Shown here piece by piece: positions 12,745 to 45,130 of a stretch of DNA of 64,000 bases. Origin of the DNA: Pseudomaricurvus alkylphenolicus. Its GTDB lineage: Bacteria; Pseudomonadota; Gammaproteobacteria; Pseudomonadales; Cellvibrionaceae. The stretch lies in contig NZ_JAAQPI010000005.1 of the NCBI RefSeq assembly GCF_011683955.1, positions 62,001 through 126,000 of the forward strand, read 5' to 3'. The notes beneath the pieces were generated by a model, which was not told the DNA's origin, did not search any database, and worked only from the letters and a program-made list of their open reading frames with translations. Within the stretch, counting starts at the first letter, position 1; each line of letters opens with the position of its first letter. Made by a program: the position numbers and the translations under genes.

Positions 12745-12774
12745 TTATCGATAAACTATATAAAATCGATATTA
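12745..12774. promoter_or_regulatory. paired ATCGAT boxes upstream of Mo dehydrogenase operon
   Basis: ATCGAT at 12747-12752 (within TTATCGATAA) and 12765-12770 (within AAAATCGATATT), centres 18 bp apart, 32-55 bp upstream of the ATG at 12802. Paired boxes with 18-19 bp spacing recur at 18234, 36257, 37320 and 45105. A regulator binding as a dimer of dimers is inferred. Confidence 0.55.
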
Positions 12775-12801
12775 ATAAAACAAATATATATTGTGACTGG
12801 A

Positions 12802-15621
12802 ATGGCAAAGATTACACGCCGGGATTTTCTAAAGTTTAAGGCCGCAGGTATTGCGGTCAGTGTGGTGCCTTATGGCAGTCGTGCATTTGCGGCGTTGTTT
12901 GAGGACAAGCCACTGTCGCCCATTGAGTGGAGGCAGGACAATGGTGAGGCTCGCTTTCGAATTGACGGCATCGCCAAGGTCACGGGAAGTAAAGTCTTTG
13001 CTCGGGACATTCGGGCTAAGGACATGCCTCAATGGCCTGATAACCAGTCTCACGCCATGGTGTTAAGGGTGACACGCGCGGACCGTATTTTCGAAGGAAT
13101 CAACTTGAGCAGACTGGCAAATGGGTTGATGCCGGATCGCCTGGTGACCGCCGAGGATCTGACCCGCGATGGTTTGATGCAGCTGCCCCGGTTCTTCGAT
13201 GACACCCTGATGGCGAGAGCAGGAGAGACCGCGGCTCACCTTGGTGCCGCGGTTGCCGTTTTGATCTTTCACGACTTTGCCCGCTTCCGCCTGGCCAAGC
13301 AGGCGCTGCAATTCAGGCAAGACGTGATTCAATACGGGGCGGAGACTGGTCCCATCGAACGGCCTCCCTGGGGCAGCTACCGTTATGTGCGGGTAGGGGG
13401 CGATAGTCCCTACGATGAAGATGTTTTTTCCAGTCTCAAGGACAGCCCAATTTTTCCGGGCTACAAGAAGCAGGAGCTCGAATGGCCGGAGGCGGATCTC
13501 CGTGGAGACGTCGGTGAGCGCGGTATGTACTACGCAGAGGAAATCGGTCGCGAGATCGAACGTCCCGGGCGGGATGTGATGGTCCTGAGCCGGGATTATT
13601 TTTCCCAATCCACCGATATGGCGGCATTGGAGCCCGACAGCGTCAACACCTGGTATAACGAGCAGGAACACAGCCTCCACATGGTCATTCCGACGCAATC
13701 GCCACAGGATGCCGCCAGGCACGTCGCGGAAATCTGTGCCCGGGGAAAAGCGCCGGTAAAACAGCTCTATATCCATCCTTGCCACACTGTGGGTTATGGC
13801 ACCAAAGACCGCCAGACGCTTCCATACCTTGGATTGGCGGCGGCCTTCTATGCCGGCGGCCGACCTCTCAGGATATCTCATGACCGCTTCGAGCACTTTC
13901 AGACATCCCACAAGCGCCATAGCTTTAAGATGCATTACAACATTGCGGTCAACAAGAATAACCATCGATTCGAAGCGCTGCAGGCCGACATGCAAGTCAA
14001 TGGAGGAGGGCGTCGAACCTATTCTCCGTCAGTTGCCAGAGCGGGTATTGTCCAGGCCCAATCCATCTACTATTTTCCCAAATCAGATCTCCAGGCCACG
14101 TCCATTGCCTCGCGAGCCGTCGACGCCGGTTCAGCGAGAGGCTACGGTGCGCTGCAAACCTTGTCTGCAACCGAAATGCTGGTTGATGAAGTTGCGCAAG
14201 AATTAGGTACCGATGCGATCGATCTTCGTCTCAAGAATGTGCTCAAGTCGGGAATGAAAGCCTCTCATGGCGCGGTGCCGACCTGGGCGCTTCGCGCTGA
14301 AGAAATTCTGCAAAAAGCGCGTAAACACCCACTTTGGGAAAACAGATCTGAGCGCAAGAGCCGCTACGAGCAGAAGCATCCCGGGTATCGATATGGGGTG
14401 GGTTTTGCCTGCATTCACAAAGACTTTGGTATGGGCGTCGATGCCGCCTTTGCTGGTGTGGAGCTCAGTGCCGACGGGCGTATACATCTGCGTCATACCG
14501 GGGCGGAAATCGGTACCGGTACAGCCACCAGTCAGGCAATTGTATGTTCTGAGTGGCTGGGACGGGCAGCGGACAAAGTGACCATGGCGGTGATCGACTG
14601 GGCAGACCTGCCAATGGTCAGCGGCGGCAACCCCTTTGTACCGCGTCAGGACGAGCAGGATCGAAACGCAGAGAACCCATTTTGGACTCCGCATTTGGCC
14701 TCTCCCTCCAGCGCAACCAACTCGGCCTACTTTTTCTCTCACGCCACTCGTGAAGCGGCTCGAATTATTTTTGATTTTGGACTTTGGCCAGCGGCTTTAG
14801 CCATTTGGATGCGGGGTATTGGCGGAGGGCAGGTGACGGGCTCTACATTAAAGCGTGAACACGCACAGTGGATCGACGGACACCTGACGGTAGGAGGCAT
14901 GCAACCTCTGTCACTGCCAACCCTGGCAGCCAAAGCCCACAAACTTGGGTTGGTGACTGGCGCGGTTACTCATGTGTTTGATCGATGGCAGTGGGCAGAA
15001 GCTGAGTTTTCGATTGATGGTCAAACGGATCGTCGGCCCATTGATGGATTGTCTGTGCGTTATGGTGAGGGTGCGCCTGAACGCAAGAAATCACAGCAGA
15101 CAACGCCCGGGGGATTTCACCCGTTGCCGCGCCTGAAAGCCTATTTTCCCCCTGCCGCCAGGGCAAAGGCTTACAAAACCTATTACAGCGGACTGGGAAT
15201 GCTGGTGGAGCTGGCGGTGAATACCGGCACGGGCAAAGTCTCCGTTCTCTCCCATCACTCGATCATGGAATGTGGAAAAATGCTGGTGCCGGAATTGGTA
15301 TCGGGGCAATTACAGGGCGGTATTGCCATGGGTATCGGCCATGCCTTGCACGAATACTTACCGCTCTACGAAGACGGTCCCGGCAATGGCACCTGGAACT
15401 TCAATCGCTATCATGTTCCAAGAGCCAGGGATGTTGCTGTCTGGCATCAAAGCGCTGACGTTCTGCCGCCGCTTTCCGACTCCGACCCCAATAAGGGGGT
15501 TGCCGAAGGTGTCACCATTCCGGTGATTCCCGCTATTGCCAACGCCTTGGCTCATGCTACCGGACATCGATTCCGGGAGTTGCCCGTCACGCCAGAAAAG
15601 ATTCGCGAGGTGCTGTTGTGA
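12802..15621 (+). CDS. molybdopterin-binding subunit, isoquinoline/nicotinate/aldehyde dehydrogenase-type (xanthine dehydrogenase family)
   Basis: 939 aa. A Tat signal begins it (MAKITRRDFLKFKAAGIAVS), so it works in the periplasm. Xanthine-oxidase-family landmarks include SARGYGALQTLSATEMLVDE, the GIGGGQVTGS loop, GGIAMGIGHALHE and the C-terminal PNKGVAEGVTIPV with the expected catalytic Glu. The Mo cofactor is likely molybdopterin-cytosine dinucleotide. Role: hydroxylation of a heteroaromatic ring or oxidation of an aldehyde with water as oxygen donor. Longer than the usual ~730 aa. The ATG at 12802 is directly before the Tat signal. The 2Fe-2S gene overlaps by 4 bp, followed by the cytochrome c. 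Substrate not deducible. Confidence 0.92.
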   Translation: MAKITRRDFLKFKAAGIAVSVVPYGSRAFAALFEDKPLSPIEWRQDNGEARFRIDGIAKVTGSKVFARDIRAKDMPQWPDNQSHAMVLRVTRADRIFEGINLSRLANGLMPDRLVTAEDLTRDGLMQLPRFFDDTLMARAGETAAHLGAAVAVLIFHDFARFRLAKQALQFRQDVIQYGAETGPIERPPWGSYRYVRVGGDSPYDEDVFSSLKDSPIFPGYKKQELEWPEADLRGDVGERGMYYAEEIGREIERPGRDVMVLSRDYFSQSTDMAALEPDSVNTWYNEQEHSLHMVIPTQSPQDAARHVAEICARGKAPVKQLYIHPCHTVGYGTKDRQTLPYLGLAAAFYAGGRPLRISHDRFEHFQTSHKRHSFKMHYNIAVNKNNHRFEALQADMQVNGGGRRTYSPSVARAGIVQAQSIYYFPKSDLQATSIASRAVDAGSARGYGALQTLSATEMLVDEVAQELGTDAIDLRLKNVLKSGMKASHGAVPTWALRAEEILQKARKHPLWENRSERKSRYEQKHPGYRYGVGFACIHKDFGMGVDAAFAGVELSADGRIHLRHTGAEIGTGTATSQAIVCSEWLGRAADKVTMAVIDWADLPMVSGGNPFVPRQDEQDRNAENPFWTPHLASPSSATNSAYFFSHATREAARIIFDFGLWPAALAIWMRGIGGGQVTGSTLKREHAQWIDGHLTVGGMQPLSLPTLAAKAHKLGLVTGAVTHVFDRWQWAEAEFSIDGQTDRRPIDGLSVRYGEGAPERKKSQQTTPGGFHPLPRLKAYFPPAARAKAYKTYYSGLGMLVELAVNTGTGKVSVLSHHSIMECGKMLVPELVSGQLQGGIAMGIGHALHEYLPLYEDGPGNGTWNFNRYHVPRARDVAVWHQSADVLPPLSDSDPNKGVAEGVTIPVIPAIANALAHATGHRFRELPVTPEKIREVLL

Positions 15622-16169
15622 GCAAATCCGCTGTTGCTACCCGACCCCTGACCATCATGATCAATGGCAAACTTCAAGGTCCTTTCGAGGTGCCTGAAGG
15701 ACTGATGTTGATTGACTTTTTGCACGAGTATATGAACCTGACCGGCACTCACTTTGGATGTGGACAGGGAATGTGTCGTGCCTGCACAGTGATTTACGAT
15801 AAAGACGACGGTACTTCAGAAGAACGGAGGGCCTGTATTACCGGCGTGCATTACTTTAATGGCAAACGTATTCGAACCATTGAAGGTCATGCCAGCCACA
15901 ATGATGCCGGCGAGGTCGTATCGCTTTCACCCGTACAACAGGCCTTTTTGGATCATTACTCTTTTCAATGTGGTTACTGTACCCCCGGTTTTGTCAATGC
16001 GGCGACGCTTTTGGTGGAAAAGCTCAGCACCAATCCGATATCCCGAGATCAACTGGAGACGGTCATTGAAGAGGCGCTGGGGGAGCATATCTGCCGCTGC
16101 ACGGGTTATGTGCGCTACTACCAAGCGGTGAAGGCAACACTGCTGGACATACCCGGGTTAGTGGTCTGA
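15618..16169 (+). CDS. (2Fe-2S)-binding subunit of the Mo dehydrogenase
   Basis: 183 aa. The plant-type ferredoxin cluster uses GCGQGMCRACTV plus RRACITG; Arg replaces the usual Gly in CGxC. The second, helical cluster uses CGYCTPG and CRCTGY. Electrons run from Mo through both clusters to the cytochrome encoded next. It starts at a GTG sharing GTGA with the preceding stop, so it is translationally coupled. No signal peptide; export with the Tat-bearing large subunit is likely. Confidence 0.93.
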   Translation: MSKSAVATRPLTIMINGKLQGPFEVPEGLMLIDFLHEYMNLTGTHFGCGQGMCRACTVIYDKDDGTSEERRACITGVHYFNGKRIRTIEGHASHNDAGEVVSLSPVQQAFLDHYSFQCGYCTPGFVNAATLLVEKLSTNPISRDQLETVIEEALGEHICRCTGYVRYYQAVKATLLDIPGLVV

Positions 16170-16184
16170 GAGAAGCAAGCAACG

Positions 16185-17444
16185 ATGAAAACAGGAAATA
16201 AAATACTGGCCATATTCAGTCTGCTGGCCGTGGGCATCGTCGGCCTGGTGCTAGCCTATGATGACGTCCGAAGCCGAGTGATGGACAGAGCAGATGCGGC
16301 GGTTAGCCAGGACGCTGACACCATTCGCAGGGGCGCCTATCTTGCGGCGGCGGCCGATTGTGTGGCCTGCCATACCAGTGACGACGGTCTGGCTTTTGCC
16401 GGAGGAACGCCCCTGCACACGCCGTTTGGTACCATCTATGGGACCAACATAACGCCCGACAAGCGCCACGGTATCGGGTTCTACGATGCCGATGAGTTCT
16501 TTCGGGCCGTAGTCCACGGCCGGGCCCGAGACGGACGTCACCTGTACCCGGCCATGCCCTATACCAGTTATCGGGATCTGACTCGGGAGGACGTCGATGC
16601 TATTTATGCCTATCTGATGGATCTGGCTCCGATTAACTTGCCCAATAAGCCCCACGAATTGAGTTGGCCGTTCAGCATGACGTGGACACTGGCATTCTGG
16701 AACTCGTTGTTTGTGCCCAATCAGTCGTTGTTTATGAAGTCGGAGGAATTTCAGGCGCCGTCCTCCCAGTGGCGCAGAGGAGAATATCTATCCACGGCAC
16801 TGGGTCATTGCGGAGAGTGTCACACACCGAGGAATCTTATGGGAGCCGTGGACCCGGGAAATGCTTTAAATGGCGCGTTCCTGGAGGGATTTGAGGCGCC
16901 GGATATCAGCACGGCCGGCCTGATCGAACGGGGCTGGAGTTCTCCGGATTTGTTGCAGTTTCTCAAAACCGGAATTTCCCGCCAGGGAACCATGACCGAT
17001 GAGATGTTCCCGGTTCTGAAGCACAGCACGCAGTATCTGAAGGACGTTGACGCGCAGGCGATGGTCGCCTACCTGATTGGGGATCAACCAAGGAGAATTG
17101 AACAGGAGTTGGGATTTGACCCGAGTCTTGAGAACGGTAGACAAACCTATCTTGACCTTTGCTCCGGTTGTCACGCACCGGATGGAGAGGGAATTCCCCA
17201 CGTTGCCGTGGCAATGACGACCAATACCTCCCTGAGGTTTGAAAATCCAAGAAACCTGATTCTCGTGATTCTGAAGGGGATAGAAGAACAGGACTTTCCT
17301 GGCCTGGAACATATGCAGGCGATGCCCGGTTATCAATCTTCGCTCAATGATCAAGAGGTTGCTGAACTGGGCAACTACCTTCGTGTCACTTGGGGAGGAA
17401 AGTCCGCCTCCATTACCGCATCCGATATTCGTGAGCTGCGATAA
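16185..17444 (+). CDS. tri-haem cytochrome c subunit of the Mo dehydrogenase
   Basis: 419 aa. One N-terminal membrane anchor (about 6-25) precedes three CXXCH sites: CVACH near 59, CGECH near 210 and CSGCH near 326. The layout matches the cytochrome subunit of membrane-bound alcohol/aldehyde dehydrogenases, and of NicB, where three haems are fused to the Mo subunit. Role: passes electrons from the periplasmic dehydrogenase to the respiratory chain. It is the third gene of the operon, 15 bp after the 2Fe-2S gene, and is followed by a strong terminator. Confidence 0.93.
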   Translation: MKTGNKILAIFSLLAVGIVGLVLAYDDVRSRVMDRADAAVSQDADTIRRGAYLAAAADCVACHTSDDGLAFAGGTPLHTPFGTIYGTNITPDKRHGIGFYDADEFFRAVVHGRARDGRHLYPAMPYTSYRDLTREDVDAIYAYLMDLAPINLPNKPHELSWPFSMTWTLAFWNSLFVPNQSLFMKSEEFQAPSSQWRRGEYLSTALGHCGECHTPRNLMGAVDPGNALNGAFLEGFEAPDISTAGLIERGWSSPDLLQFLKTGISRQGTMTDEMFPVLKHSTQYLKDVDAQAMVAYLIGDQPRRIEQELGFDPSLENGRQTYLDLCSGCHAPDGEGIPHVAVAMTTNTSLRFENPRNLILVILKGIEEQDFPGLEHMQAMPGYQSSLNDQEVAELGNYLRVTWGGKSASITASDIRELR

Positions 17445-17530: not shown

Positions 17531-18233
17531 GGGGCGTGGCAAGCCCTTTTAGATTTCAGGGTCTTCAGGAAAATTGTGGGCTAGCTGGGACCAGGCTTTA
17601 GTGGAGATGTGCCAAAAGCTGAACTTCGGCGTGGCACAAATTATCTTCGTGTGTAGCAGCGCGCTCCGAGCGCGACCGGGTTGGCACCGTCTCTTTGCAC
17701 CATAACCGACCATTGGAATTAGGTGTTTTTCCCAGACATTTTCCTTGCTGGAAGGACGAAAGGGGCTAGTGATTTTGTGCCACAACGAACACCCAGCCAC
17801 CCTTTAGACCGAGGTACCCGATCTTTATCGTTCTGAACGTCGCAACTTCAAACCGTTGATATGGAGAAAACCCATCGCGCTCAGAGCGCGCTCCTACAGG
17901 TGGTTGGAGAATCCTGTAGGAGCCGGCTCTGAGAGCCTGCCCCGCCTTATCGGGTACGGCGATTGCGCTCGAAGAGCGCACACATCTATTTCAGGTTATG
18001 GCACATTGCTGCCTATCGGATCCCCTCTGAGGCTTGTTACAAATAGAGCTCAAATAGAAAGACTCGATCCGCAACATAATCCTTTCGAATTTCAACAAGC
18101 TAGTCATCTTTCCGGGCATTTTTTTCCCACGAATTCTTAGGAGGAATCATATTCCCAAACGTTCTGAGCAGCTCATGGCGTCATAACCTCAGTTTCATAG
18201 CATGGTATCAATATATGGATATTAAAAATTATA
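17531..18233. other. intergenic region with REP-like repeats
   Basis: No gene is supported. REP-like palindromes lie at 17650-17680 and 17870-17965. The stretch from about 18180 to 18345 is AT-rich and forms the promoter region of the TonB gene at 18346. Nothing else is recognised. Confidence 0.6.
17650..17965. repeat. cluster of GCGCGCTC-type REP-like elements
   Basis: Related units: GTAGCAGCGCGCTCCGAGCG (about 17652), then on the other strand the CGCGCTCAGAGCGCGCTCCT palindrome (about 17876), GTAGGAGCCGGCTCTGAGAG (about 17917) and GCGCTCGAAGAGCGC (about 17965). The consensus TGTAGGAGCGCGCTC resembles REP sequences of pseudomonads. They differ from the GTAGGTTGGATTAG units at 593-804, so two REP families are present. 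Confidence 0.55.
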
Positions 18234-18262
18234 ATCGGTATATTGGTTGAAAATCGATTTTA
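18234..18262. promoter_or_regulatory. paired ATCGAT-like boxes upstream of TonB receptor
   Basis: ATCGGT (18234-18239) and ATCGAT (18253-18258, in AAAATCGATTTT), centres 19 bp apart. The spacer TATTGGTT is shared with the pair at 37320 and nearly with that at 45105 (TATAGGTT). About 90-110 bp upstream of the start at 18346. Confidence 0.55.
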
Positions 18263-18345
18263 ATACCCTATACTGATTTGTAGATCCTGCAGCCAGGTTG
18301 CGCTTGCCGACTGTGGATCTTCTACCCGATTGAGGAGAGACAAAC

Positions 18346-20511
18346 GTGAATCTGACAAAAATCCAAAAAGCAATTATCAATTACAACGCCCTGTTGGCAA
18401 TTGGGGCAACCAGTCTACTGGCTTCGCCCGGTGTAACCCTTGCCGAAAGCCTCGCCCTGGAAGAGGTGGTCGTTACAGCGCGAAAGCGGGAAGAGAATCT
18501 TCAAGAGGTACCGGACTCGATTACGGTACTGAACAACGAAAGCCTGGAAAACGCCGGGGTGGGCAATCTCGAAGACGTGGGTGCCATTGTGCCCAATATG
18601 AGCGTTCGTCGAGCCAATAACGCCGCCTCGATGCTGATTGCGATGCGTGGTATCAACCCCTCCCGTAACACTGAACCTTCGGTGGCAGTGGTTGTCGACG
18701 GTGTACAGCAAAGTAACTTTCTGCAGTTTTCTCAGGCGTTGTCCGACGTGGCACAAATAGAAGTGCTCAAAGGGCCACAGGGTTCACTGTATGGCCGCAA
18801 TGCATTGGGTGGAGCGATCAACATCGTGACTCAGCAACCGGGTGATGAGTTTGAAGCCAAGCTTGCAATGGGGCTGGGTAATGGTGAGAAAAGTGAAATC
18901 AGTGCCATACTTAGTGGTCCCCTGGTTCAAGACAAACTCTATTACCGATTGAGCACTCGGTATAGCAATTTCGATGGCGTGATCCATAATCCCACCGTCA
19001 ACGATGAAGTGGATTTTGAAGAATCCCGTTCAGGTAAACTGCAGTTGAGTTATCGGGGTATTGACGCACTGGAACTTGAGGTCTATTTGTCTTATCAGGA
19101 TGTCGATGCGTCGGTGTTTAACTGGATTCGTTTTGATGAACCGAATTCCCATCGCAAAACGGATGCTGAACCTAGAGGTAACCGCGTAGGCGTGGATAAC
19201 TACAGTTTTGCAGACGCCACGCTCAAGGCTTCCTACGATTTTGGAGAGGTAACACTATCTTCGGTAACCAGCTATTCGGAGACGCGGGACTCCTGGCGGG
19301 GAGACGACGGTGGCCCCACAGATTTGGATTTTGGACCGTTTGACTTCGCAGGCTGTGTTTGTCGTATTCAGGACTACGATGGCTTCACCCAGGAGTTGCG
19401 CCTTGAAAACAGTAATCCGGAGAACCTTTCCTGGCTGGCTGGCGTCTATTACCTTAAACAGGAAGCTCATTTCGAACAACAGATAGTCTTTGGAGTTAAC
19501 CCCTTTGACCCCAACAATAGTGAGTTTAATGCAGGTGGCAAGAGCAGTTCGGATTTTGACAATGAGACCCTGGCTGTTTTCGGACAGTTGAACTACGATT
19601 TGAGCGATGATCTGGCGCTTACTCTTGGATTGCGCTATGACCGCGATGAACGGGAACAGCATGATCTGATTTCCGGTCGCAAGGACGACGAAACCTTTTC
19701 TCTGCTGCAACCCAAAGTATCACTGTCCTACCAATTAACCGATGACGTTATGGTGTACGGAACGGCTTCTCGGGGGTTCCGCTCCGGTGGCTTTAACCCA
19801 GGTGCGGAAAATGGGTTGTTTGGTGCCTTATTCGAATCCGAAGAGATCTGGAACTACGAACTGGGCGCCAAAACCACGCTTGCTGATGGGCGGGTTACCT
19901 TGAACGGTGCCTTGTTTTATCAGCAGCTGGATGATCACCACGAATTTGTTTTTGACAGAACAGTCGGTTCTTCCGTGGTCTATAACGTTCCCGAGTCTAC
20001 CATTTCAGGTATCGAACTTGAGCTTACCGCAAGACCTATCGAAAATCTGGATATCGTCGCCGGTTTAGGGCTGATGGATTCGGAGATCGAAGAGTTTGAT
20101 GCCGCCGCGATTGGTTTCGACCCGGATCTGTTGCCGGGGGTTCCAGAGAACCTTCAAGGTGAGGGCAACAAACTGCCGCTGATCGCCCATCAGACCTTTA
20201 ATTTGTCGGCTCAATACACGATTACCACCGAAGACTGGGAAATTATTCCCCGGGTGGATTATTCCTGGGAGGATCGCAAGTGGTGGTTCCTCGACAATAC
20301 ACAAGAAGCAGGCAAGCTCAGTCTGGTTAACGCCTCTGTCACCGTGCGCTACCAGGATAATCTGACCTTCCGCTTGTGGAGTGACAACCTGATGGATGAA
20401 GACTATTTCTATGAATATCTTCGTAACTTTCAGGTGGGAGCGCCATTTCCGGCTGAAGCTTATCCCGCGGCGGGACGTACCTACGGTCTTAACGTCACTT
20501 ATGATTTTTAG
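18346..20511 (+). CDS. TonB-dependent receptor
   Basis: 721 aa. Signal peptide to about residue 34, TonB-box-like LEEVVVTARKREENL, plug with QIEVLKGPQGSLYGRNALGG, and a barrel ending GLNVTYDF. It starts with GTG; a perfect GAGGAG eight bases upstream decides the start. It comes before the double-VOC/FAH/MDR gene set on the same strand with only a hairpin between, so import and ring-cleavage genes may be co-transcribed. Same plug type as the receptors at 8755 and 28295, but clearly divergent from them. The ligand is unknown. Confidence 0.95.
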   Translation: MNLTKIQKAIINYNALLAIGATSLLASPGVTLAESLALEEVVVTARKREENLQEVPDSITVLNNESLENAGVGNLEDVGAIVPNMSVRRANNAASMLIAMRGINPSRNTEPSVAVVVDGVQQSNFLQFSQALSDVAQIEVLKGPQGSLYGRNALGGAINIVTQQPGDEFEAKLAMGLGNGEKSEISAILSGPLVQDKLYYRLSTRYSNFDGVIHNPTVNDEVDFEESRSGKLQLSYRGIDALELEVYLSYQDVDASVFNWIRFDEPNSHRKTDAEPRGNRVGVDNYSFADATLKASYDFGEVTLSSVTSYSETRDSWRGDDGGPTDLDFGPFDFAGCVCRIQDYDGFTQELRLENSNPENLSWLAGVYYLKQEAHFEQQIVFGVNPFDPNNSEFNAGGKSSSDFDNETLAVFGQLNYDLSDDLALTLGLRYDRDEREQHDLISGRKDDETFSLLQPKVSLSYQLTDDVMVYGTASRGFRSGGFNPGAENGLFGALFESEEIWNYELGAKTTLADGRVTLNGALFYQQLDDHHEFVFDRTVGSSVVYNVPESTISGIELELTARPIENLDIVAGLGLMDSEIEEFDAAAIGFDPDLLPGVPENLQGEGNKLPLIAHQTFNLSAQYTITTEDWEIIPRVDYSWEDRKWWFLDNTQEAGKLSLVNASVTVRYQDNLTFRLWSDNLMDEDYFYEYLRNFQVGAPFPAEAYPAAGRTYGLNVTYDF

Positions 20512-20541
20512 CAAAGGAACGCAGGTGTTTATCTGAAACCA

Positions 20542-20559
20542 GGGGACCCCAGGGTCCCC
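20542..20559 (+). promoter_or_regulatory. intercistronic hairpin after the TonB gene
   Basis: GGGGACCC pairs with GGGTCCCC around two bases, without a following T-run. It probably acts as an mRNA-processing or partial termination point between the receptor and the VOC gene, permitting lower expression downstream. Confidence 0.45.
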
Positions 20560-20613
20560 CGCAGGTATAGAGTTTAGTAAAGAATTCGACAACAAAAATT
20601 GGAGCGAAGAATT

Positions 20614-21834: not shown

Positions 21835-21881
21835 ACGCGCGACAAACCGAACTAACTATACTCACAATGCTTGGAGGAATC

Positions 21882-22817: not shown

Positions 22818-22880
22818 GGCCGGCAGCTATTGCAGGTCGATAACAGGCAATCGAAACAAAACATCGCAAGAAGGTTCACA

Positions 22881-23861: not shown

Positions 23862-23891
23862 TCGGCACCTTCAGAAAAACAGGAGAGAAAA

Positions 23892-32330: not shown

Positions 32331-32340
32331 AAATCGATAT
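32331..32340. promoter_or_regulatory. single ATCGAT box upstream of VOC gene
   Basis: AAATCGATAT with AT-rich flanks, 83-88 bp upstream of the VOC start at 32421. No good partner box at 18-19 bp was found. The intergenic region 32267-32420 otherwise shows nothing recognisable. Confidence 0.35.
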
Positions 32341-32420
32341 TATATTGTAATATGCATTTAGTGTCATTTTTAAGTGACTCATTAATTCCCATTCTCTAGA
32401 TCAAAAAAAGGAACAATACT

Positions 32421-35364: not shown

Positions 35365-35440
35365 AGAATGCTCTCAGTGCTTTTCTATAAAATTGAAGTT
35401 ATGGAGTTGTGGCAGTTACGCTGATGCGGCCGAGCGCCGC

Positions 35441-36220: not shown

Positions 36221-36256
36221 AACGGGCCTCTTTAACAGAAATGTTTCAGTCCACAA

Positions 36257-36286
36257 TATCGACAAGATTAGAATAAATCGATTTTC
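36257..36286. promoter_or_regulatory. paired ATCGAT-like boxes upstream of crotonase operon
   Basis: ATCGAC (36258-36263) and ATCGAT (36277-36282, within AAATCGATTTT), centres 19 bp apart, 38-62 bp upstream of the crotonase ATG. Confidence 0.55.
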
Positions 36287-37188: not shown

Positions 37189-37319
37189 GTTCCCCCCTGG
37201 TTCAACCTACGAACGGTTATCTGCTTCTGAGTGTCATTGTAGCCGATGGTATGGAGCAAAAAAACTATTAATGACTGAATGAAGATATTCAGACCTTCAA
37301 ATAGGTTTTGGGCCTTATT

Positions 37320-37343
37320 ATCGATATTGGTTTAAAAATCAAC
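37320..37343. promoter_or_regulatory. paired ATCGAT-like boxes in the GntR/MFS intergenic region
   Basis: ATCGAT (37320-37325) and degenerate ATCAAC (37338-37343), centres 18 bp apart, with TATTGGTT in the spacer as at 18240. It is 132-155 bp upstream of the GntR start and about 160-180 bp from the MFS start. Confidence 0.45.
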
Positions 37344-37436
37344 GAATTGGATGGTTATATCGTCATTTGAATTCAGGTCGATCTGACCAAAACTGACCTT
37401 AAAAATCATTTATTTATAAAAAATATATTGTTGTCT

Positions 37437-37450
37437 ATAAAATCGATTAT
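37437..37450. promoter_or_regulatory. ATCGAT palindrome close to the MFS operon start
   Basis: ATAAAATCGATTAT, ATCGAT at 37442-37447, 52-57 bp upstream of the MFS ATG. No second box at 18-19 bp. Together with the pair at 37320 the region holds three box-like sequences. Confidence 0.45.
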
Positions 37451-37498
37451 ATGTTAGTTTGAAAATGTCAGCGAAACCTGTTCGGGAGAAACCTGCCT

Positions 37499-38860
37499 AT
37501 GGGCGATGTACAAAGCGTCAATGTGACAAAAGTAATCGATGAGCGACCCTTAAGTCGCTTTCAGAAGACTGTCATTGCACTGTGTGGAATTGTTGCGATG
37601 CTGGATGGTTTCGACACTTTGTCGATCAGTTTCGTGGCCCCGGTGATTGCAGAGCAATGGGGTGTGGAGCGTTCCCAGTTTGGCCCCATTTTTTCGTCAG
37701 CATTGGTCGGTTTGTTGGTGGGTGCATTAACGCTGGGGGCGTTGGCGGATCGGGTGGGGCGTCGCTGGGTGATTATCCTCTCGACGGGCGGCTTCGGATT
37801 CTTCGCGTTTCTGACCGCCTACGCCGAAACTCTGAATGAGTTGATGATTCTAAGGTTCCTTACGGGGCTTGGCCTTGGTGGTGCCATGCCCAATATCATT
37901 GCGATGACGTCGGAATACTCCCCCAAACGTGTCAAAACCCTGGCCGTTGTGGTCATGTTTTCAGGCTTTCCTCTGGGGGCCATGTTAGGTGGACTGGTAA
38001 GTGCGCAGCTCATCGGCGCTTTTGGATGGGAGAGCGTGTTTATTTTTGGTGGCATGTTGCCTATTGTTATGGTGCCTGTACTCTACTTTTGGCTCCCTGA
38101 GTCAATTCCCTATCTGGTACTCAAGAATGCCCAGACCAGTCACGGTGGCCGTATTGCTGCCTATCTCGCCAGGATTGACTCGAAACAGGTTTTCAATGCA
38201 GACGATAACTTCTATATGCCGGAACCTCCGGCTGCAGACTCATCGGTAAAAAGTCTGTTTGATCAAAACCGCGCGCAAGTGACAGTCATGCTGTGGGCGG
38301 TTTTCTTTACCAATTTGTTGATGTTCTATTTCTTATCGCAATGGTTGCCGATTGTTCTCTCCGGCGCCGGACTGCCTGTACACCTGGCCATTGTGGCATC
38401 GGTGCTGCTGAGTTTCGGCAATATCTTCGGTGGTATCTTTCTCGGTCGTATGGCGGACAAGTTCGGTCCATTCCGTGTCCTGGGCTTTAATTACATTGCC
38501 GCTGGCGTTTTCGCCGCTCTGATCGGTGTAGCCAGTTCAAATTTGTATCTGGTCTCGGCCATGGTCTTTTTGGCTGGCTTTTCGGTCGGGGGAGGGCAGC
38601 TCGTCGCCAACAGTCTGGCGGCGATTCTTTATCCGGTTGCGATTCGATCCACGGGTATCGGCTGGGCCGTCGGCTGGGGGCGTATAGGGGCAATTTGTGG
38701 TCCTCTGTTAGCCGGTGGGCTCATTGCTCTGGGCTTGTCTATTGAGATGCTGTTTGTTGCTTGCGGTGTTCCGGCGCTGCTGGCCTCTTATGCGGTATTT
38801 TCTATGGGAAACATGAAAACTGAGTCGTTGGGCGTGCAACGGGAGAGCTGCAGTTTATGA
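37499..38860 (+). CDS. MFS transporter, aromatic acid:H+ symporter (AAHS) family
   Basis: 453 aa, about 12 membrane helices. Motifs: MLDGFDTLSISFVAP in helix 1 (the DGxD motif of PcaK/BenK-like proteins), the MFS loop GALADRVGRRWVI, and FLTGLGLGGAMPNIIAM. Role: proton-driven uptake of an aromatic or heteroaromatic acid across the inner membrane. Divergent from GntR. The YCII gene's ATG overlaps its TGA (ATGA). Substrate not fixed by sequence; the operon mates are YCII and an amidase. Confidence 0.92.
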   Translation: MGDVQSVNVTKVIDERPLSRFQKTVIALCGIVAMLDGFDTLSISFVAPVIAEQWGVERSQFGPIFSSALVGLLVGALTLGALADRVGRRWVIILSTGGFGFFAFLTAYAETLNELMILRFLTGLGLGGAMPNIIAMTSEYSPKRVKTLAVVVMFSGFPLGAMLGGLVSAQLIGAFGWESVFIFGGMLPIVMVPVLYFWLPESIPYLVLKNAQTSHGGRIAAYLARIDSKQVFNADDNFYMPEPPAADSSVKSLFDQNRAQVTVMLWAVFFTNLLMFYFLSQWLPIVLSGAGLPVHLAIVASVLLSFGNIFGGIFLGRMADKFGPFRVLGFNYIAAGVFAALIGVASSNLYLVSAMVFLAGFSVGGGQLVANSLAAILYPVAIRSTGIGWAVGWGRIGAICGPLLAGGLIALGLSIEMLFVACGVPALLASYAVFSMGNMKTESLGVQRESCSL

Positions 38861-39246
38861 CGGATGCCATTCCCACGGAAACAGTCTATGTCAATTCCGA
38901 AGGGTTTCTGCGCATGAAGCTCTATGTTATTCAGACTGCGCCTGCTGAGGACATAGAGTCGCTTGCCGTACACCTGAAGGCCCACTTGGAGTACCAGGTC
39001 ATGTTGGAAAAGAGGGGCATTCTGTTTGCCGCCGGCCCAATTTGGGGCGATGATGAAGACAATTGGCACGGTGAGGGGTTAGTGATTATCAGAGCGGAGT
39101 CGCTGTTGCAGGCCCAAGCCATTGCCGCCGAGGACCCGATGCATAGCAGTGGCGCACGCCACTTTCAGGTTAAGCCGTGGCTGCTCAACGAGGGCAGCCT
39201 GGAGGTGAATCTTAGCTTTTCTGACTGTAGTATGCGTCTCAGGTAA
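38857..39246 (+). CDS. YCII-related domain protein
   Basis: 129 aa. YCII fold indicated by MLEKRGILFAAGPIWGDDED and the VIIRAESLLQAQAIAAEDPMHSSG stretch (key residues AEDP and HSSG). The YCII His and Asp are characteristic; some members act as dehalogenases or muconolactone isomerase-like enzymes. The ATG overlaps the MFS TGA by four bases, so it is coupled. A later methionine (residue 20) is another possible start, as the first 19 residues look non-conserved. Confidence 0.82.
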   Translation: MTDAIPTETVYVNSEGFLRMKLYVIQTAPAEDIESLAVHLKAHLEYQVMLEKRGILFAAGPIWGDDEDNWHGEGLVIIRAESLLQAQAIAAEDPMHSSGARHFQVKPWLLNEGSLEVNLSFSDCSMRLR

Positions 39247-39262
39247 CGCCAGGGGGATGAAC

Positions 39263-40711
39263 ATGGAAATCGCCTTTCGAAGCGCCAGCGAGCTGGCCAA
39301 CCTGATCAGGCAAAAAGAACTTGGTTGTGAAGAGTTATTGGAGATATATCTGCAGCGGGTTAGCCGCCACAACCCGAAGTTAAACGCCGTCGTTGTTCTT
39401 GACCAAAAGAGGGCGCGTAAACGAGCCAGGGAAGCGGATGCAGCCCTGGCGCGCGGAGAAATCTGGGGGCCGTTGCACGGCGTTCCCATGACCTGCAAGG
39501 AATCCTTTGATGTCAGGGAGTTGCCCACCACCCGTGGAAACCCTGATCTGAGAGCCAATATTCCCGCCATTGACGCACTGGCAATCCAGCGGTTGCAGAA
39601 CGCGGGAGCCATTATTTTTGGCAAAACCAATGTGCCTCTCAATTTGGTCGATATCCAGAGCTACAATGACATCTATGGCACTACGAATAACCCCTGGGAT
39701 GTCGACAGGGGAGCAGGCGGATCTTCCGGCGGATCAGCCGCTGCGCTGGCGGCGGGGCTCACCGGGTTTGAGATTGGATCTGACATCGGTGGATCCATTC
39801 GCAATCCGGCTCACTATTGTGGTGTCTTTGGTCACAAATCGACCTGGGGCATAATCCCTCCCCGCGGACACGCGGCTCCCGGATTGTTGGCGCAATCGGA
39901 TCTTGGCGTGCTTGGCCCGATGGGCCGAAGTGCCAATGATTTGCAGCTTGGTATTGAGGTGCTTGCCGGGCCGGATGAAATCCAGTCACAAGGGTATCAG
40001 CTCCAATTATCAAAACCGGGCAAAAGCTCCCTGGCTGACTTGAAGGTGGCGGTCTGGAATTATGATTCCCGGGCGCCAGTGACGCGCTCGGTCAGATCAG
40101 CGGTGGACAGGGTGGCTCACGCTATTTCAAGCGCCGGAGGTCAGGTTGAACCCGATGCCCGGCCTGATTTCGATCCCCAAGAGCAACACGATGTGTTCCA
40201 GACGCTAATGCAAGCGGTATCCAATGCGGGATTGAACGATAGCCAATATGAAAAGTTGACAGACACTGTTGCCGGGCTTGAAGCCGGAGACCACAGCGCC
40301 AGGGCCAAGACTCTCCGAAACCAGGCGGCCAGCTTCAGGGATTATGCCCGTGCCAATGAGCGACGCACGCATTTTCGTTGGGCCTGGCATGAATTCTTCA
40401 AATCATTTGATGTACTGATTTGTCCGGTAGTGGCGACCAGTGCCTTTTTGCATGATCATCGACGGTTCGGTGAGCGTAGTATTGAAGTGGATGGGGTGAA
40501 GCAACCCTATTTTCAACAGTTATTCTGGCCAGGCATGGCGGTTTGCTCACTCTTGCCTGCTACCGCCATGCCGGTCTGTCAGGACGAAAATGGCTTGCCC
40601 ATCGGCGTGCAGATAATTGGTCCCGAGTTTGGTGACCTCAAGACCATTCAGGTGGCAAGGCTGTTGGAAGAGAGCGGTTTCGCATTCCGTCAGCCACCCG
40701 GTTATGAATAA
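39263..40711 (+). CDS. amidase, amidase-signature family
   Basis: 482 aa. The Ser-cisSer-Lys catalytic triad is visible: CKES Lys, the glycine-rich GAGGSSGGSAAALAAG with cis-Ser, and nucleophile Ser in GSDIGGSIRNPA. Role: hydrolysis of an amide or, in some members, another acyl bond. The ATG at 39263 has GGGGG six bases upstream, so it is preferred to the one at 39257. Ends convergently with the CoxG gene, six bp apart. It may release an acid or ammonia from an aromatic amide. Confidence 0.93.
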   Translation: MEIAFRSASELANLIRQKELGCEELLEIYLQRVSRHNPKLNAVVVLDQKRARKRAREADAALARGEIWGPLHGVPMTCKESFDVRELPTTRGNPDLRANIPAIDALAIQRLQNAGAIIFGKTNVPLNLVDIQSYNDIYGTTNNPWDVDRGAGGSSGGSAAALAAGLTGFEIGSDIGGSIRNPAHYCGVFGHKSTWGIIPPRGHAAPGLLAQSDLGVLGPMGRSANDLQLGIEVLAGPDEIQSQGYQLQLSKPGKSSLADLKVAVWNYDSRAPVTRSVRSAVDRVAHAISSAGGQVEPDARPDFDPQEQHDVFQTLMQAVSNAGLNDSQYEKLTDTVAGLEAGDHSARAKTLRNQAASFRDYARANERRTHFRWAWHEFFKSFDVLICPVVATSAFLHDHRRFGERSIEVDGVKQPYFQQLFWPGMAVCSLLPATAMPVCQDENGLPIGVQIIGPEFGDLKTIQVARLLEESGFAFRQPPGYE

Positions 40712-40717: not shown

Positions 40718-41269
40718 TCAGGCTCCGGAAAAGTACCAGAAGGTTGCCAGTAACGCACAGAGGGCGGCGGCGAGTTTCCAGATTATCGTCAGGGAGGCTG
40801 AGCGTTCTTTAGCGGATGCCGGTTTAAGATCTTCTCCGACAATATTGGCGGAGAAGGTTTCAAAAAAGTCGTTGGCGAGTTTGCGGGCAGAGCTTTCGAC
40901 CAGGCGACTGCCAATCTGTGCCAATTTCCCGGACACCTCCGCAGTGAACTCATAGGTGAGTAATGTCTCGTCGCCGTCAGCCTTCAGATTCACGGCGGCT
41001 TTACACCTGCCCATGCTGGCGGCCCCTTTGCCCTCACCGGTCAGCAGGTAACTCTGCGGGGGAATGACGTTGGAAAGTGTACAGCTGCCGCTGAAAGGGG
41101 CCTTGACCGGACCGACTCTGGCAATGACGGTGGCCTCCATCTCTGTGTCGGATACTTTGACCAGGCGCTCACAACCAGGAATGGCGTGTTTTAAGGCGTC
41201 GGGACTGTTGAGCGCGGAGAATACCACCTCTCTGGCGGCGGCGATACGGTGTTCACCTTCAAATTTCAT
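40718..41269 (-). CDS. CoxG-family SRPBCC protein with C-terminal membrane anchor
   Basis: 183 aa. The SRPBCC domain (about 1-145: KFEGEHRIAAAREVVFSALNSP, HAIPGCERL) is followed by a single C-terminal hydrophobic helix (about 160-181). CoxG anchors CO dehydrogenase to the membrane; this homologue probably does the same for the adjacent Mo hydroxylase. The ATG at 41269 has AGAGG seven bases upstream. Last gene of the Cox-like operon. Confidence 0.87.
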   Translation of the reverse strand: MKFEGEHRIAAAREVVFSALNSPDALKHAIPGCERLVKVSDTEMEATVIARVGPVKAPFSGSCTLSNVIPPQSYLLTGEGKGAASMGRCKAAVNLKADGDETLLTYEFTAEVSGKLAQIGSRLVESSARKLANDFFETFSANIVGEDLKPASAKERSASLTIIWKLAAALCALLATFWYFSGA

Positions 41270-41287
41270 GACCATACCTCTTTGTTA

Positions 41288-43669
41288 CTACTGGTGAGTT
41301 TGCTTTAACGCATCCAGAATGACTTCCGGTGTAAAGGGTTGTTCTTTAACCTGTGCTCCGAGTGGACGCAGTGCATCGTTGATGGCACACCACATAACCC
41401 CAATAGCGCCAATGGTTCCTGCTTCTCCTACGCCTTTGGCGCCAAGTTGTGTATAGCGGGTCGGGGTTTCGACGTGTTCGACATGGATATCCGGCATCTC
41501 GCTGGCCATGGGCACCAGATAGTCCGCCATACTGGCATTGAGCATTTGCCCCTGTAGATCGTAGTGGCATTTTTCCAGCAGTGCCCCGCCGATACCCTGT
41601 ACAATCCCGCCTCGCACCTGTTCATCAACAATCATGGGATTGAGAATGCGTCCACAATCGTCCACCGCCCAGTGCCTTAACAGACGAATGATGCCGGTAT
41701 GGGTATCGACTTCCAGATAAGATGCCTGTACGCCATTGGCGACGTAGTAGGGGGGAACATCGTTGCGCGGTACGTGGCTGCGGGTTACCGCGAATTCCGG
41801 TTGCAGGTCGGCGGGTAATTGGTCCTGTCTGAAATGGCCGATCTTAGCCACCTCCTCCAGCTCCATACAGCTTTGACCATTGTGTTTCAGGCAGATCCGG
41901 GAGCGGCTAAGGGTAAGCTCCTGAGGCGCAAGGTCGAGCAGCGCAGCGGCCACTTCCAGAATATTGCTTTGCAGCTGACGAGCTGCTTTTAACGCGGCTT
42001 CGCCAGCCATGGCAGCGCCTCGTGACGCCCAGGAGCCGCCTCCATAGGGTGTGGTACCGCTGTCCCCATGAATCACGCTGATGTCGTCGACACCAATGCC
42101 AAGTTCCTCCGCTACGATTTGCGCAATGCCTGCGGTGGTGCCCTGGCCTTGTTCCGTTGCGCTGGTCAGGCAGCGAACCTTTCCGGTGGGCTCAAGTTTG
42201 AGTGTGCAGCCTTCCTGAACCGACACTCTCGCTTCTGTAGGACCATAATAACGGGAACCGTAGGCGGTCTGCTCGATAAAGGTGGCAATACCAATACCGC
42301 GATAAATACCGCGTTCTCTCTGTTGTTGCTGTTCCTGCCTGAGTTCGTCGTAGTTCATCAACGCCTTGAGCTGCGTCAGACACTGGTGCAAAGAAAGCTG
42401 TTCAAAGTGAATGCCCGTTGCGGTGGTGTGGGGGTACATATCATCGTCAATATAGTTCTGTCGACGAAACTCCAGAGGATCCATATGCACGGCAGCGGCG
42501 GCCAGGTCTACCATCTGTTCGCCAACGGCACAGGCAATAGGAAGACCCACTCCGCGATACATGCCGATCATATTTTTATTCTGGTAGACAATTCGTGTGC
42601 GTCCGCGATAGTGCTTGAACTTATAGGGCGCGGCCGCGCTGGTGATGGTTTGCAAGCCTTCGACAATACTGAAACGTCTGGCGTGGCCATAAGGTCCAAC
42701 GGCGGACAGATCGTCAACCTCGAAGGCCTGAATCCGGCCATTGGCGGAGACTGCCATTCTCGCTTTGACTCGGTGATCCCGGGCATGGGTATCAGAGACA
42801 AAGGACTCCATCCGATCGGCGACAAATTTTACTGGCCTGCCTGTCAGAACACTGGAGGCCACTGCGGCGACCTCGTCCCCGTAGATGTGCAGCTTGACCC
42901 CAAAAGCCCCTCCCACATCAGGGCAAATCACTCTGACGTTATTTTCATCGATGGCCAGATTCTGTGCATAGAGGTCTTGCATCTGGAATGGGGACTGGTG
43001 AGATTGGTATACGGTCAATGATCGGCTGCCTGAGTTGTAATCAGCGATAACCGACCGGGGTTCCAGCGTGACACCGGTTTGGCGCCCAAAAGTGAAATCC
43101 GCCTCCACGACATGGAGGGCTTTATTGAATGCCTCGTCGGGTGAACCGGCCTCAATCAATTGTTCGTCTGCCAGATTGGTACCCAGATCCGGGTGAATCA
43201 GCGGTGCGGAAGCTTCCAGGGCTCCGTGAGGATCGACGACAGCCGGCAGCTCTTCAAAATCGATAAAAACATGGTCAATGGCATCTTCCGCCTGCGCGCG
43301 GGTCTCAGCGAGAATGGCAACAATGGGCTCCCCCTGCCAGGTTACCTGTTCCATCGCCAATGGGTACTGAGGCGCAGATTTAAGATTGGGACGATGCGCG
43401 GCTTCTCCGTTCCAGGGCTTGCAAATTTCCGCGATGTCAGCACCGGTAAAAATATGTGCTATGCCCGGCTGCCGAAGTGCGTCGTCAATATTTATGTTAA
43501 CGATTTTGGCGTGGGCGAGTGGGCTGCGAACAAACACCAGCTCCAACATCCTCGGCAATTGGATATCGTCGGTATAACGTCCCCGGCCGTGTACCAGTTG
43601 TCGCAAGGCGCTGCGGGGAACGCTTTTGCCAATAATACTCTCTCGATCACTCGGACGCTGATTATCCAT
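41288..43669 (-). CDS. Mo hydroxylase large subunit (CoxL-like, xanthine dehydrogenase family)
   Basis: 793 aa, the usual length. MoCo-binding motifs: FVRSPLAHAKI, VCPDVGGAFGVK-like ICPDVGGAFGVKLHIYGDE, EQGQGTTAGIAQI, and the C-terminal GAKGVGEAGTIGA with catalytic Glu. The position of the CODH active-site loop AYxCSFR reads MYRGVGLPIA, so it is not a CO dehydrogenase; aromatic or aldehyde hydroxylation is more likely. No Tat signal: cytosolic, in contrast to the enzyme at 12802. It overlaps the 2Fe-2S gene by 8 bp. Confidence 0.93.
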   Translation of the reverse strand: MDNQRPSDRESIIGKSVPRSALRQLVHGRGRYTDDIQLPRMLELVFVRSPLAHAKIVNINIDDALRQPGIAHIFTGADIAEICKPWNGEAAHRPNLKSAPQYPLAMEQVTWQGEPIVAILAETRAQAEDAIDHVFIDFEELPAVVDPHGALEASAPLIHPDLGTNLADEQLIEAGSPDEAFNKALHVVEADFTFGRQTGVTLEPRSVIADYNSGSRSLTVYQSHQSPFQMQDLYAQNLAIDENNVRVICPDVGGAFGVKLHIYGDEVAAVASSVLTGRPVKFVADRMESFVSDTHARDHRVKARMAVSANGRIQAFEVDDLSAVGPYGHARRFSIVEGLQTITSAAAPYKFKHYRGRTRIVYQNKNMIGMYRGVGLPIACAVGEQMVDLAAAAVHMDPLEFRRQNYIDDDMYPHTTATGIHFEQLSLHQCLTQLKALMNYDELRQEQQQQRERGIYRGIGIATFIEQTAYGSRYYGPTEARVSVQEGCTLKLEPTGKVRCLTSATEQGQGTTAGIAQIVAEELGIGVDDISVIHGDSGTTPYGGGSWASRGAAMAGEAALKAARQLQSNILEVAAALLDLAPQELTLSRSRICLKHNGQSCMELEEVAKIGHFRQDQLPADLQPEFAVTRSHVPRNDVPPYYVANGVQASYLEVDTHTGIIRLLRHWAVDDCGRILNPMIVDEQVRGGIVQGIGGALLEKCHYDLQGQMLNASMADYLVPMASEMPDIHVEHVETPTRYTQLGAKGVGEAGTIGAIGVMWCAINDALRPLGAQVKEQPFTPEVILDALKQTHQ

Positions 43670-44165
43670 GATGCGGGTTGCTCTTGTCGGATGCCAAACG
43701 TTTATTCAGTGTCGACTCGATGGCGTCGACGATGGCGTGATAGCCCGTGCAGCGGCAGTAGTTACCGGATATATGATCACGGATCGCGTCCCGGCTGACG
43801 GGTTCTTTACCGCCGATCAGATCCGCCGCGGTCATTAACATGCCTGGTGTGCAGAAGGCGCATTGGGCGGCGTTGCGTTGAATAAATTCGTGTTGCAGAT
43901 CTGCGATTTCCCCACTTTGAGAAATGCCCTCAATAGTTTCGACAACACATCCGTCGGCTTGAACTGCCAGCATCAGACAGCTTCGCGCCGAGCGCCCATT
44001 CACCCTGATTGTGCAGGCGCCACATACGCCTTGTTCGCAGCCAATATGGGTGCCGGTCAAGCCCAGTTCATGTCTCAGGAAATCGGCTAGGTGTTGACGA
44101 ACGGGAACCCGGTGAGACACCTCTTCGCCGTTAAGTGTAAAAGCTATTTCTCGCGTGTTTTGCAT
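43662..44165 (-). CDS. Mo hydroxylase (2Fe-2S) subunit (CoxS-like)
   Basis: 167 aa. The first cluster uses GCEQGVCGACTI and RSCLML, the second CAFCTPGM and CRCTGY. The ATG at 44165 is preferred; an upstream TTG at 44186 would overlap the FAD-subunit stop. Carries electrons from Mo to the FAD subunit. Middle gene of the CoxM-S-L-G-like order. Confidence 0.93.
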   Translation of the reverse strand: MQNTREIAFTLNGEEVSHRVPVRQHLADFLRHELGLTGTHIGCEQGVCGACTIRVNGRSARSCLMLAVQADGCVVETIEGISQSGEIADLQHEFIQRNAAQCAFCTPGMLMTAADLIGGKEPVSRDAIRDHISGNYCRCTGYHAIVDAIESTLNKRLASDKSNPHHG

Positions 44166-44182
44166 ATCAATCTCTGGTTTTG

Positions 44183-45073
44183 TCAATCGATTGTTCCGAT
44201 ATCACGTGCCAGAGAGAGAAGGGCTCTCTCCAGCAGAACCGTCGCCAGATGTAACTTGGTATCCGCCCGTCCCTCCAGATTGGCAGTCGGGTTCAGTTCC
44301 TGCTCAAGTTTCTGCTTGGCGGCGGTGATCGTATTTTTGTCGATAGATGTGCCGATCAAGTGCAGGCAGGTTTGAGCAAGTCTGGTGGGTTTATCTTCAC
44401 AGCCAAAAATAACCACATCCAGCGCTTTCAAGCTGCGTTTGGAAGACATAAGACCTTTCTTGACAGCAGCCGTACAAGCCAGGCCGACAATGGCAAAGTC
44501 GCCTTGACGCCGGTTGATTTCTTCAAAATAGTGGAGTTGCTGAGGAGCGCATTTGGGAATAGTAATCTGTGTCAGAATTTCATTATCCTGACGCTCCGTG
44601 GTGTAGAGCCCGGAAAAAAAGTCTCTCGCTTTCACCACGCGTTGCCCTGAACGGCTGCTGAGTTCAAAGGTCGCGTCAAGGGCAACGCAGCAGGCCGGTA
44701 ATTCTGCAGCGGGGTCTGCCATCGACAGACTGCCACCAATGGTGCCTCTATTACGAATGGCGACATGCGCGACATGGGGCATGGCGCTGGCGATCAACGG
44801 CAGGTGTTCCTTTACTATGTCGGACTCAAGCAGTTCCATATGGCGAGTCAAGGCGCCGATACGAATGTCTTTGCGGGTCTCGCGAACTCCGCTCAGCCCC
44901 TGGATGCTATTGATATCGATCAGGACCTGCGGCTGGGACAAGCGCATGTTTAACGTCGCCATCAGGCTTTGACCTCCGGCGATAATCCGAGCCTCTTCTC
45001 CATATTGATCCAGGAGCCCCAGTGCTTGATCCAAACTGGTGGCGTTTACATAGTCGAAAAGTGGAGCTTTCAT
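44183..45073 (-). CDS. Mo hydroxylase FAD subunit (CoxM-like)
   Basis: 296 aa. Vanillyl-alcohol-oxidase-type FAD motifs AGGQSLMATLNMRL (about 32-45) and TIGGSLSMADPAAELP (about 111-126), with a CO_deh_flav_C-like end. Role: final electron transfer to quinone or another acceptor. First gene of the operon. An ATCGAT pair at 45105 lies 32-57 bp upstream of the ATG. Divergent from the DUF1857 gene at 45338. Confidence 0.92.
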   Translation of the reverse strand: MKAPLFDYVNATSLDQALGLLDQYGEEARIIAGGQSLMATLNMRLSQPQVLIDINSIQGLSGVRETRKDIRIGALTRHMELLESDIVKEHLPLIASAMPHVAHVAIRNRGTIGGSLSMADPAAELPACCVALDATFELSSRSGQRVVKARDFFSGLYTTERQDNEILTQITIPKCAPQQLHYFEEINRRQGDFAIVGLACTAAVKKGLMSSKRSLKALDVVIFGCEDKPTRLAQTCLHLIGTSIDKNTITAAKQKLEQELNPTANLEGRADTKLHLATVLLERALLSLARDIGTID

Positions 45074-45104
45074 TGGGGGCGTCTCTGTACACCATGTTAT
45101 AAAA

Positions 45105-45130
45105 TACGATTATAGGTTATAAAATCGATA
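45105..45130. promoter_or_regulatory. paired ATCGAT-like boxes upstream of Cox-like operon
   Basis: TACGAT (45105-45110) and ATCGAT (45124-45129), centres 19 bp apart, spacer TATAGGTT. 32-57 bp upstream of the CoxM-like ATG at 45073, and about 210 bp from DUF1857. Confidence 0.55.

Follow-up and report, generated by a model that had tools for sequence, protein, structure and literature searches.

Boxes of the sequence ATCGAT stand in pairs before several operons of a catabolic island in Pseudomaricurvus alkylphenolicus, and the question raised by this locus is which regulator, if any, reads them. The window analyzed here is the whole stretch of 64,000 nucleotides taken from contig NZ_JAAQPI010000005.1 (assembly GCF_011683955.1, positions 62,001 to 126,000 of the forward strand), and coordinates below are window positions. 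The original prediction had described five pairs with boxes 18–19 base pairs (bp) apart, whose coordinates and letters proved exact in all five cases when checked against the sequence, and had suggested that one regulator, perhaps the GntR protein at 36442, controls uptake and oxidation genes together. Our analysis favors the same protein, as judged from tandem boxes 19 bp apart beside its homologues in six other families and from a matrix, trained on these homologue promoters, that recovers the window sites. With a probability of about 0.87, we read the boxes as operators of the island's own FCD-domain GntR regulator (gntR, 36442..37188, minus strand), which would repress itself and the uptake and oxidation operons until released by a pathway compound.

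The spacing is most evident in promoters of GntR 36442 homologues from other genomes, where we compared 70 different upstream sequences, each about 300 bp long. The homologue set covers part of the order-level matches, with 20 matches lacking a locus added and others left out; omitted from the 70 were loci L001, L002, L004, L007, L010, L063 and L099, homologues below 32% identity and duplicates, while L045 was not entered and L003, L005, L006, L008 and L009 had no tblastn match. ATCGAT pairs allowed one mismatch at most over both boxes were found at 19 bp in 15 of the 70 regions (18 pairs), against zero to three regions for each of the remaining spacings between 7 and 60 bp; 100 dinucleotide shuffles of the same regions gave a mean of 0.1 region, and a maximum of 1, at 19 bp. 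The 15 pair-bearing promoters span six families, nine of them coming from one family, and hence cannot be counted as 15 independent cases; in the tree, the corresponding homologues are spread over several branches. Some of the homologue promoters (L026, L029) carry three boxes in a row. Around eight homologues, in neighborhoods picked for carrying pairs and amounting to 118 kb, 15 of the 17 near-exact pairs at 18–20 bp lie upstream of gntR and two elsewhere inside open reading frames (ORFs); the pair at L106:7768 was flagged as lying in an ORF by the greedy ORF call and is upstream of gntR.

A matrix was built with one site from each of these 15 promoters (weighting brought their effective number to 6.6) and with no base of the window. 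Applied to the window it gave 14 matches of at least 20 bits, at 407, 426, 12747, 12765, 18215, 18234, 18253, 32333, 36258, 36277, 37320, 37423, 45105 and 45124, which include every originally predicted pair. Thirteen of them fall within 7 of the 27 intergenic regions of at least 60 bp, a set defined by mechanical ORF calls, with the gap 12666–12802 added by hand since the longest ORF covers it; the remaining match, 36258, starts 8 bp within the longest-ORF start of a crotonase gene. The control, 280 kb taken from elsewhere in this genome (about 3% of it), yielded one match of at least 20 bits (20.96) and none of at least 22. This sole control match, ATCGTT N13 ATTGAT, is at 18639 of L052 (window coordinate 82639), in a gap outside the window. 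Shuffling each intergenic region separately for 100 rounds gave on average 0.01 matches of at least 22 bits (maximum 1, best 23.8), compared with 9 in the window, and when the whole 104-kb stretch was shuffled 20 bits were reached in 2 of 15 cases, with a best of 21.0. The homologue-based matrix thus returned the originally predicted sites unseen, and an equal density of sites in unrelated or shuffled DNA, named along with the prediction as a refutation, was not observed in the 280 kb or the shuffles.

The bare hexamer is also frequent in the window, with 44 copies against a shuffle mean of 18.4 (standard deviation 4.5) and none of 100 shuffles reaching 44. A general abundance of ATCGAT in the host genome was rejected as an explanation, the control containing 82 copies in 280 kb, or 18.7 per 64 kb. 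While 35 of the 44 copies are inside called ORFs, all nine intergenic copies belong to arrays. Exact pairs at 18–19 bp are not enriched genome-wide, and the rarity of such a pair as such was dropped as a criterion. Exact ATCGAT pairs with start-to-start distances of 12–36 bp number 42 in the 8.88-Mb genome, three of them at 18 bp (one being 12747) and one at 19 bp; with at most one mismatch, 19-bp pairs number 34 in the genome and four in these 64 kb, which are 0.7% of it.

Pairs or triplets of boxes occur at seven regions, in three of which one partner is weak. The window's top matrix score, 29.2 bits, belongs to the pair ATCGAT N12 ATCGAT at 12747/12765 (12747..12770, plus strand), which precedes an operon for a molybdenum (Mo)-hydroxylase large subunit, a [2Fe-2S] subunit and a cytochrome c protein (12802..17444, plus). 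The likelier start of the large subunit, from its sequence, is the ATG at 12802 (MAKITRRDF, twin-arginine-like by eye), rather than the longest-ORF start at 12739, which precedes the box pair. At 18234/18253, where a pair had been predicted, the pair is present but is actually part of a triplet, ATGGAT/ATCGGT/ATCGAT at 18215/18234/18253 (18215..18258, plus, 19 bp; 28.2, 23.5 and 20.7 bits), before genes for a TonB receptor, a VOC protein (glyoxalase/dioxygenase superfamily), an FAA hydrolase and two zinc dehydrogenases (18346..24866, plus) that, from their spacing, probably form one operon. Likewise, the pair predicted at 45105 is a triplet, TACGAT/ATCGAT/ATAGAT at 45105/45124/45143 (45105..45148, no strand assigned, 19 bp; 26.9 and 24.2 bits), between a Cox-like operon encoding a CoxG-like protein and a CoxL/S/M-like Mo-hydroxylase (40718..45073, minus) and an AtaL-family gene (45203..45802, plus). 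The pair ATCGAC/ATCGAT at 36258/36277 (36258..36282, minus; 23.1 and 21.95 bits) precedes an operon for an acetoacetate-CoA-ligase family enzyme, above its model cut-off, and the crotonase, for which MenB/BadI are the nearest models, below their cut-offs (33406..36265, minus). The divergent region between gntR and an MFS gene has an array on either side: ATCGAT/ATCAAC at 37320/37338 towards gntR (37320..37343, minus, 18 bp; 21.2 bits), and ATATAT/ATCGAT at 37423/37442 (37423..37447, plus, 19 bp; 23.7 bits) towards genes for an MFS transporter, a YCII protein and an amidase (37499..40711, plus), the transporter being nearest to an aromatic acid/H+ symport model (390.1 vs a cut-off of 418.6). 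Operon boundaries throughout the island are those that we infer.

The boxes at 426, 32333 and 37442 had been taken for single ones; each turned out to have a weak partner 19 bp away (445 ATCCAT, 32352 ATGCAT and 37423 ATATAT, respectively). The pair ATCGAT/ATCCAT at 426/445 (426..450, minus; matrix matches at 407, 21.99 bits, and 426, 21.15 bits) precedes an ORF of 795 amino acids for a TonB-dependent receptor, which runs on the minus strand from 394 down to -1993, leaving the window, and whose longest-ORF start, a GTG at 394, is 32 bp from box 426. The pair ATCGAT/ATGCAT at 32333/32352 (32333..32357, plus; 25.8 bits) precedes a VOC-family gene (32421..32888, plus), whose product was also considered as a MarR-type regulator, a candidate rejected on its identification as a VOC protein. 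An 88-amino-acid ORF (32000–32266, minus) is divergent from this VOC gene and shares the box region at 32333. A weaker matrix match of 18.8 bits, at 11239, is located in the gap 11128–11272 before another TonB receptor gene (8755–11127) and beside a TetR gene, and is a possible further member of the regulon.

Two other descriptions of the sites were tried and given up. Six intergenic boxes fit the AT-flanked form WNAAAATCGATWWWW, a pattern composed after the sites were seen, so that its count is descriptive; it has 10 matches in the genome, seven of them in the window within about 33 kb, of which one is coding and six lie outside genes, provided that the Mo-hydroxylase starts at 12802. Although it picks out the strong box, this single palindrome was given up as the operator unit, having been fitted to the sites. 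The spacer motif TATwGGTT, originally reported as shared, has with its right half attached one match in the genome at up to three mismatches, partly due to a box distance that varies by one base; TAGGTT was seen again in homologue loci L015, L016 and L020.

The proposed regulator matches the Pfam families GntR and FCD and is CsiR/BphS-like, scoring 142.8 bits (E 1.3e-41) against the NCBIfam CsiR model, under the equivalog cut-off of 218. Of 390 genomes sampled from the order, 50 contain homologues at E <= 1e-25, and of 369 sampled from the class, 17 do at E <= 1e-30; the window's own genome is part of both counts, and two genomes of the order count recur in the class count. Conservation of the regulator within the genus was rejected, as five other genomes of the genus contain no close relative (best E 3.5e-4). 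The host genome is 8.88 Mb in size, compared with 4.0–5.7 Mb for these five, and a family search returned no 16S gene from it. Beside another FCD-type GntR relative (26% identity, same genome), locus L010 has two ATCGAT boxes 23 bp apart, at 1224 and 1247, plus an extra ACGAT box, which together may form a related operator that is spaced differently.

The closest GntR found, at 49.6% identity, is encoded on a plasmid of the alphaproteobacterium Leisingera sp. M527 (NZ_CP081040.1), and the tree joins it with the window GntR as a pair (support 0.992), outside a 19-member clade (0.905) that contains the regulator of plasmid pPNAP01, with deeper joins at 0.151. One-way tblastn located relatives of ten more island proteins in this plasmid neighborhood, at 41–77% (VOC 57%, FAA 58%, dehydrogenases 70 and 77%, CoxL 65%, CoxM 52%, CoxS 59%, CoxG 41%, YCII 45%, AtaL-type 74%). 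The 24.7 kb contain four matrix matches of at least 19 bits in three gaps: an exact ATCGAT N12 ATCGAT (18 bp; 32.4 and 24.8 bits) precedes the VOC-FAA-dehydrogenase genes, and weaker arrays lie in the gap between the divergent YciI and CoxM genes (19.3) and upstream of genes including the AtaL relative (19.1). Gene families behind these arrays are also behind arrays in the window, and related promoters, which the original prediction had proposed to compare, do carry them. The Leisingera cluster thus resembles the window in its GntR, the ten relatives and three box arrays, but differs in a rearranged gene order and in having a TRAP transporter where no TonB receptor is annotated within the 24.7 kb.

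Other plasmids carry comparable sites. On one of Burkholderia cenocepacia, four matrix matches of 18.3–22.8 bits are distributed over three gaps surrounding a GntR with 38% identity, and on one of Cupriavidus a single 23.0-bit match is upstream of GntR. Three of four further plasmid regulators have a 19-bp-spaced match of 17.8–19.1 bits beside the gene; the fourth, L130, has no match of at least 13. On pPNAP01 of P. naphthalenivorans, GTCGAT N13 ATCGAC (19.1 bits) is found beside a GntR gene heading bph-like genes; the pair starts 142 bp before the annotated start of the regulator, within the last part of the gene annotated upstream.

The simplest reading of these arrays is that dimers of the FCD GntR sit side by side on boxes repeated every 19 bp. 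Each self-complementary ATCGAT box with its AT-rich flanks would be one dimer site, and two or three sites about 19 bp apart would bring neighboring dimers next to each other, acting cooperatively over the promoter. We infer that the regulator would repress its own gene and about eight transcription units (the TonB receptor at 394, Mo-hydroxylase, TonB-VOC-FAA-dehydrogenase, VOC, crotonase/CoA-ligase, MFS-YCII-amidase, Cox-like and AtaL), and that a pathway substrate or ring-cleavage-type intermediate would release it. Repression and release are modeled on BphS, which is described in PMC11448139 as a repressor relieved by HOPDA.

An alternative mode of action, which we consider unlikely, is that GntR binds the arrays but mainly activates, with DNA bending. 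PMC10282184 describes activators of this GntR type, among them BphR1 of P. furukawaii KF707, a related regulator, and some arrays overlap no recognizable promoter. Both points count against repression, as do the promoter scans: sigma70-like matches on the expected strand appeared in two of the five stretches scanned (covering the arrays from 12747 to 45105), one of them near shuffle numbers, none was found in 36200–37520 or 45000–45300, and at 32333 the best promoter-like match points the other way, towards the 88-amino-acid ORF. The two matches on the expected strand, 12739–12766 (1 found vs 0.8 expected from shuffles) and 18247–18274 (4 vs 1.1), contain boxes 12747 and 18253, the classical position of a repressor, and the same source says that GntR regulators act as repressors in general.

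We think it very improbable that the boxes belong instead to a different regulator of the window or its surroundings, such as the TetR at 11273, the AraC at 30929 or the LysR at 3081. These regulators are present, and the match at 11239 is beside the TetR gene, but pairs recur upstream of GntR homologues in six other families with differing neighbors (gamma-glutamyltranspeptidase, aldehyde dehydrogenase, dioxygenase-like), so that GntR is the shared element, in neighborhoods that were not searched for TetR, AraC or LysR genes. Chance, by which a window with 44 copies of ATCGAT and AT-rich promoters would yield pseudo-pairs, is hardly credible: the lack of genome-wide enrichment of exact pairs and the 20 bits reached by shuffles of the whole stretch speak for it, but they are set against the window's 14 matches of at least 20 bits versus one in 280 kb, 9 of at least 22 bits versus 0.01, the 19-bp peak in homologue promoters and the Leisingera arrays.

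Several further observations weigh against operators of this GntR. Nine of the training promoters come from a single family, 54 of the 70 homologue promoters have no near-exact ATCGAT pair at 18–20 bp, and homologues other than that of Leisingera are distant, at 32–45% identity. Within the window, weak partners stand at 445, 32352 and 37423, the pair on the gntR side (37320/37338) has two mismatches, and the 35 ATCGAT copies inside ORFs amount to nearly twice the control density and are not accounted for by the arrays. Two of the three Leisingera arrays score about 19 bits, below the 20-bit line used for the window; two Paracoccus plasmids (regulators of about 39–40% identity) have no matrix match of at least 14 bits, and one Sphingobium regulator has no clear array. 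Moreover, no window site is within two mismatches of the 14-mer published for AphS/BphS, AAATmTCGAkATTT.

Beyond the window, we lean slightly towards a broader view, namely that tandem arrays with a period of about 19 bp are what all FCD GntR regulators of the CsiR/GlaR-AphS/BphS branch recognize, the period being conserved and the box letters changing with the DNA-binding domain. In this view such an array would also define, within the branch, one catabolic regulon that the window host has in common with a roseobacter plasmid and that probably spread by horizontal transfer. When distances between identical 6-mers were tallied in the 54 promoters lacking ATCGAT pairs, 19 came out on top (10 regions, some of them from close relatives such as L076 and L079; next was 15, with 7), and 200 shuffles averaged 1.9 regions at 19 bp, never exceeding 7. 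In one homologue family (L102, L108, L109), the pairs are located between gntR and a gene for a chromate transporter or gamma-glutamyltranspeptidase, so this operator type would serve different pathways.

For the island itself, look-alike boxes become a testable regulon of seven regions with one regulator and a defined operator. Under it, two TonB receptors and a mixed set of enzymes (two Mo-hydroxylases, enzymes of the VOC and FAA-hydrolase types, a crotonase and an amidase) would all answer to one signal, so that fewer substrates need be considered. Operons of this GntR branch can be looked for in other genomes with the matrix trained on homologue promoters. By title and start of abstract, the papers returned by our searches give no account of this operator beyond the AphS/BphS motif (PMC6449761), and the 19-bp period was not found stated in the accessible parts of accounts of AphS/BphS and CsiR operators, the original operator papers being outside this scope.

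Among known systems, CsiR/GlaR of E. coli and Pseudomonas, described in connection with glutarate catabolism (PMC6265302, PMC6667623), belongs to the same broad subfamily, and in E. coli CsiR shares tandem primary sites at a 19-bp period with the window: the sites TTGTN5TTTT and ATGTN5TTTT, given as six nucleotides apart (PMC6265302), start at 490 and 509 in L063. The published site TTGTN5TTTT differs from the ATCGAT boxes, and the DNA-binding domain of the window GntR reads SPLRE, not GPLRE; its score of 142.8 bits is below the cut-off of 218. Among the window proteins that were scanned for families, none belongs to the glutarate-hydroxylase family.

AphS and BphS carry an FCD domain. ATCGAT-centered GntR operators of aromatic catabolism are already known from these regulators of phenol and biphenyl degradation, for which PMC6449761 reports the motif AwATATCGATATwT, refined to the 14-mer above, with multiple sites implying cooperative binding. 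Common to them and the window are the GntR family, an AT-flanked palindrome on TCGA/ATCGAT, several sites per promoter and catabolic targets. The pPNAP01 regulator gene is annotated as GntR family only; its gene order fits the BphS of strain CJ2 mentioned in PMC6449761, and it is probably this protein. The window differs in its flanks, AAAATCGATWTT and not AAATATCGATATTT, in sites spread over seven regions that include TonB receptors and Mo-hydroxylases, and in a GntR outside the 19-member clade that holds the pPNAP01 regulator. Within three mismatches, the 14-mer occurs 13 times in the 64 kb vs 25 times in the 280-kb control. Because its regulator forms a clade of its own with that of Leisingera, and because of the 14-mer scan, the window system may be distinct from AphS/BphS proper, and would represent a dispersed system that works like the AphS/BphS operators.

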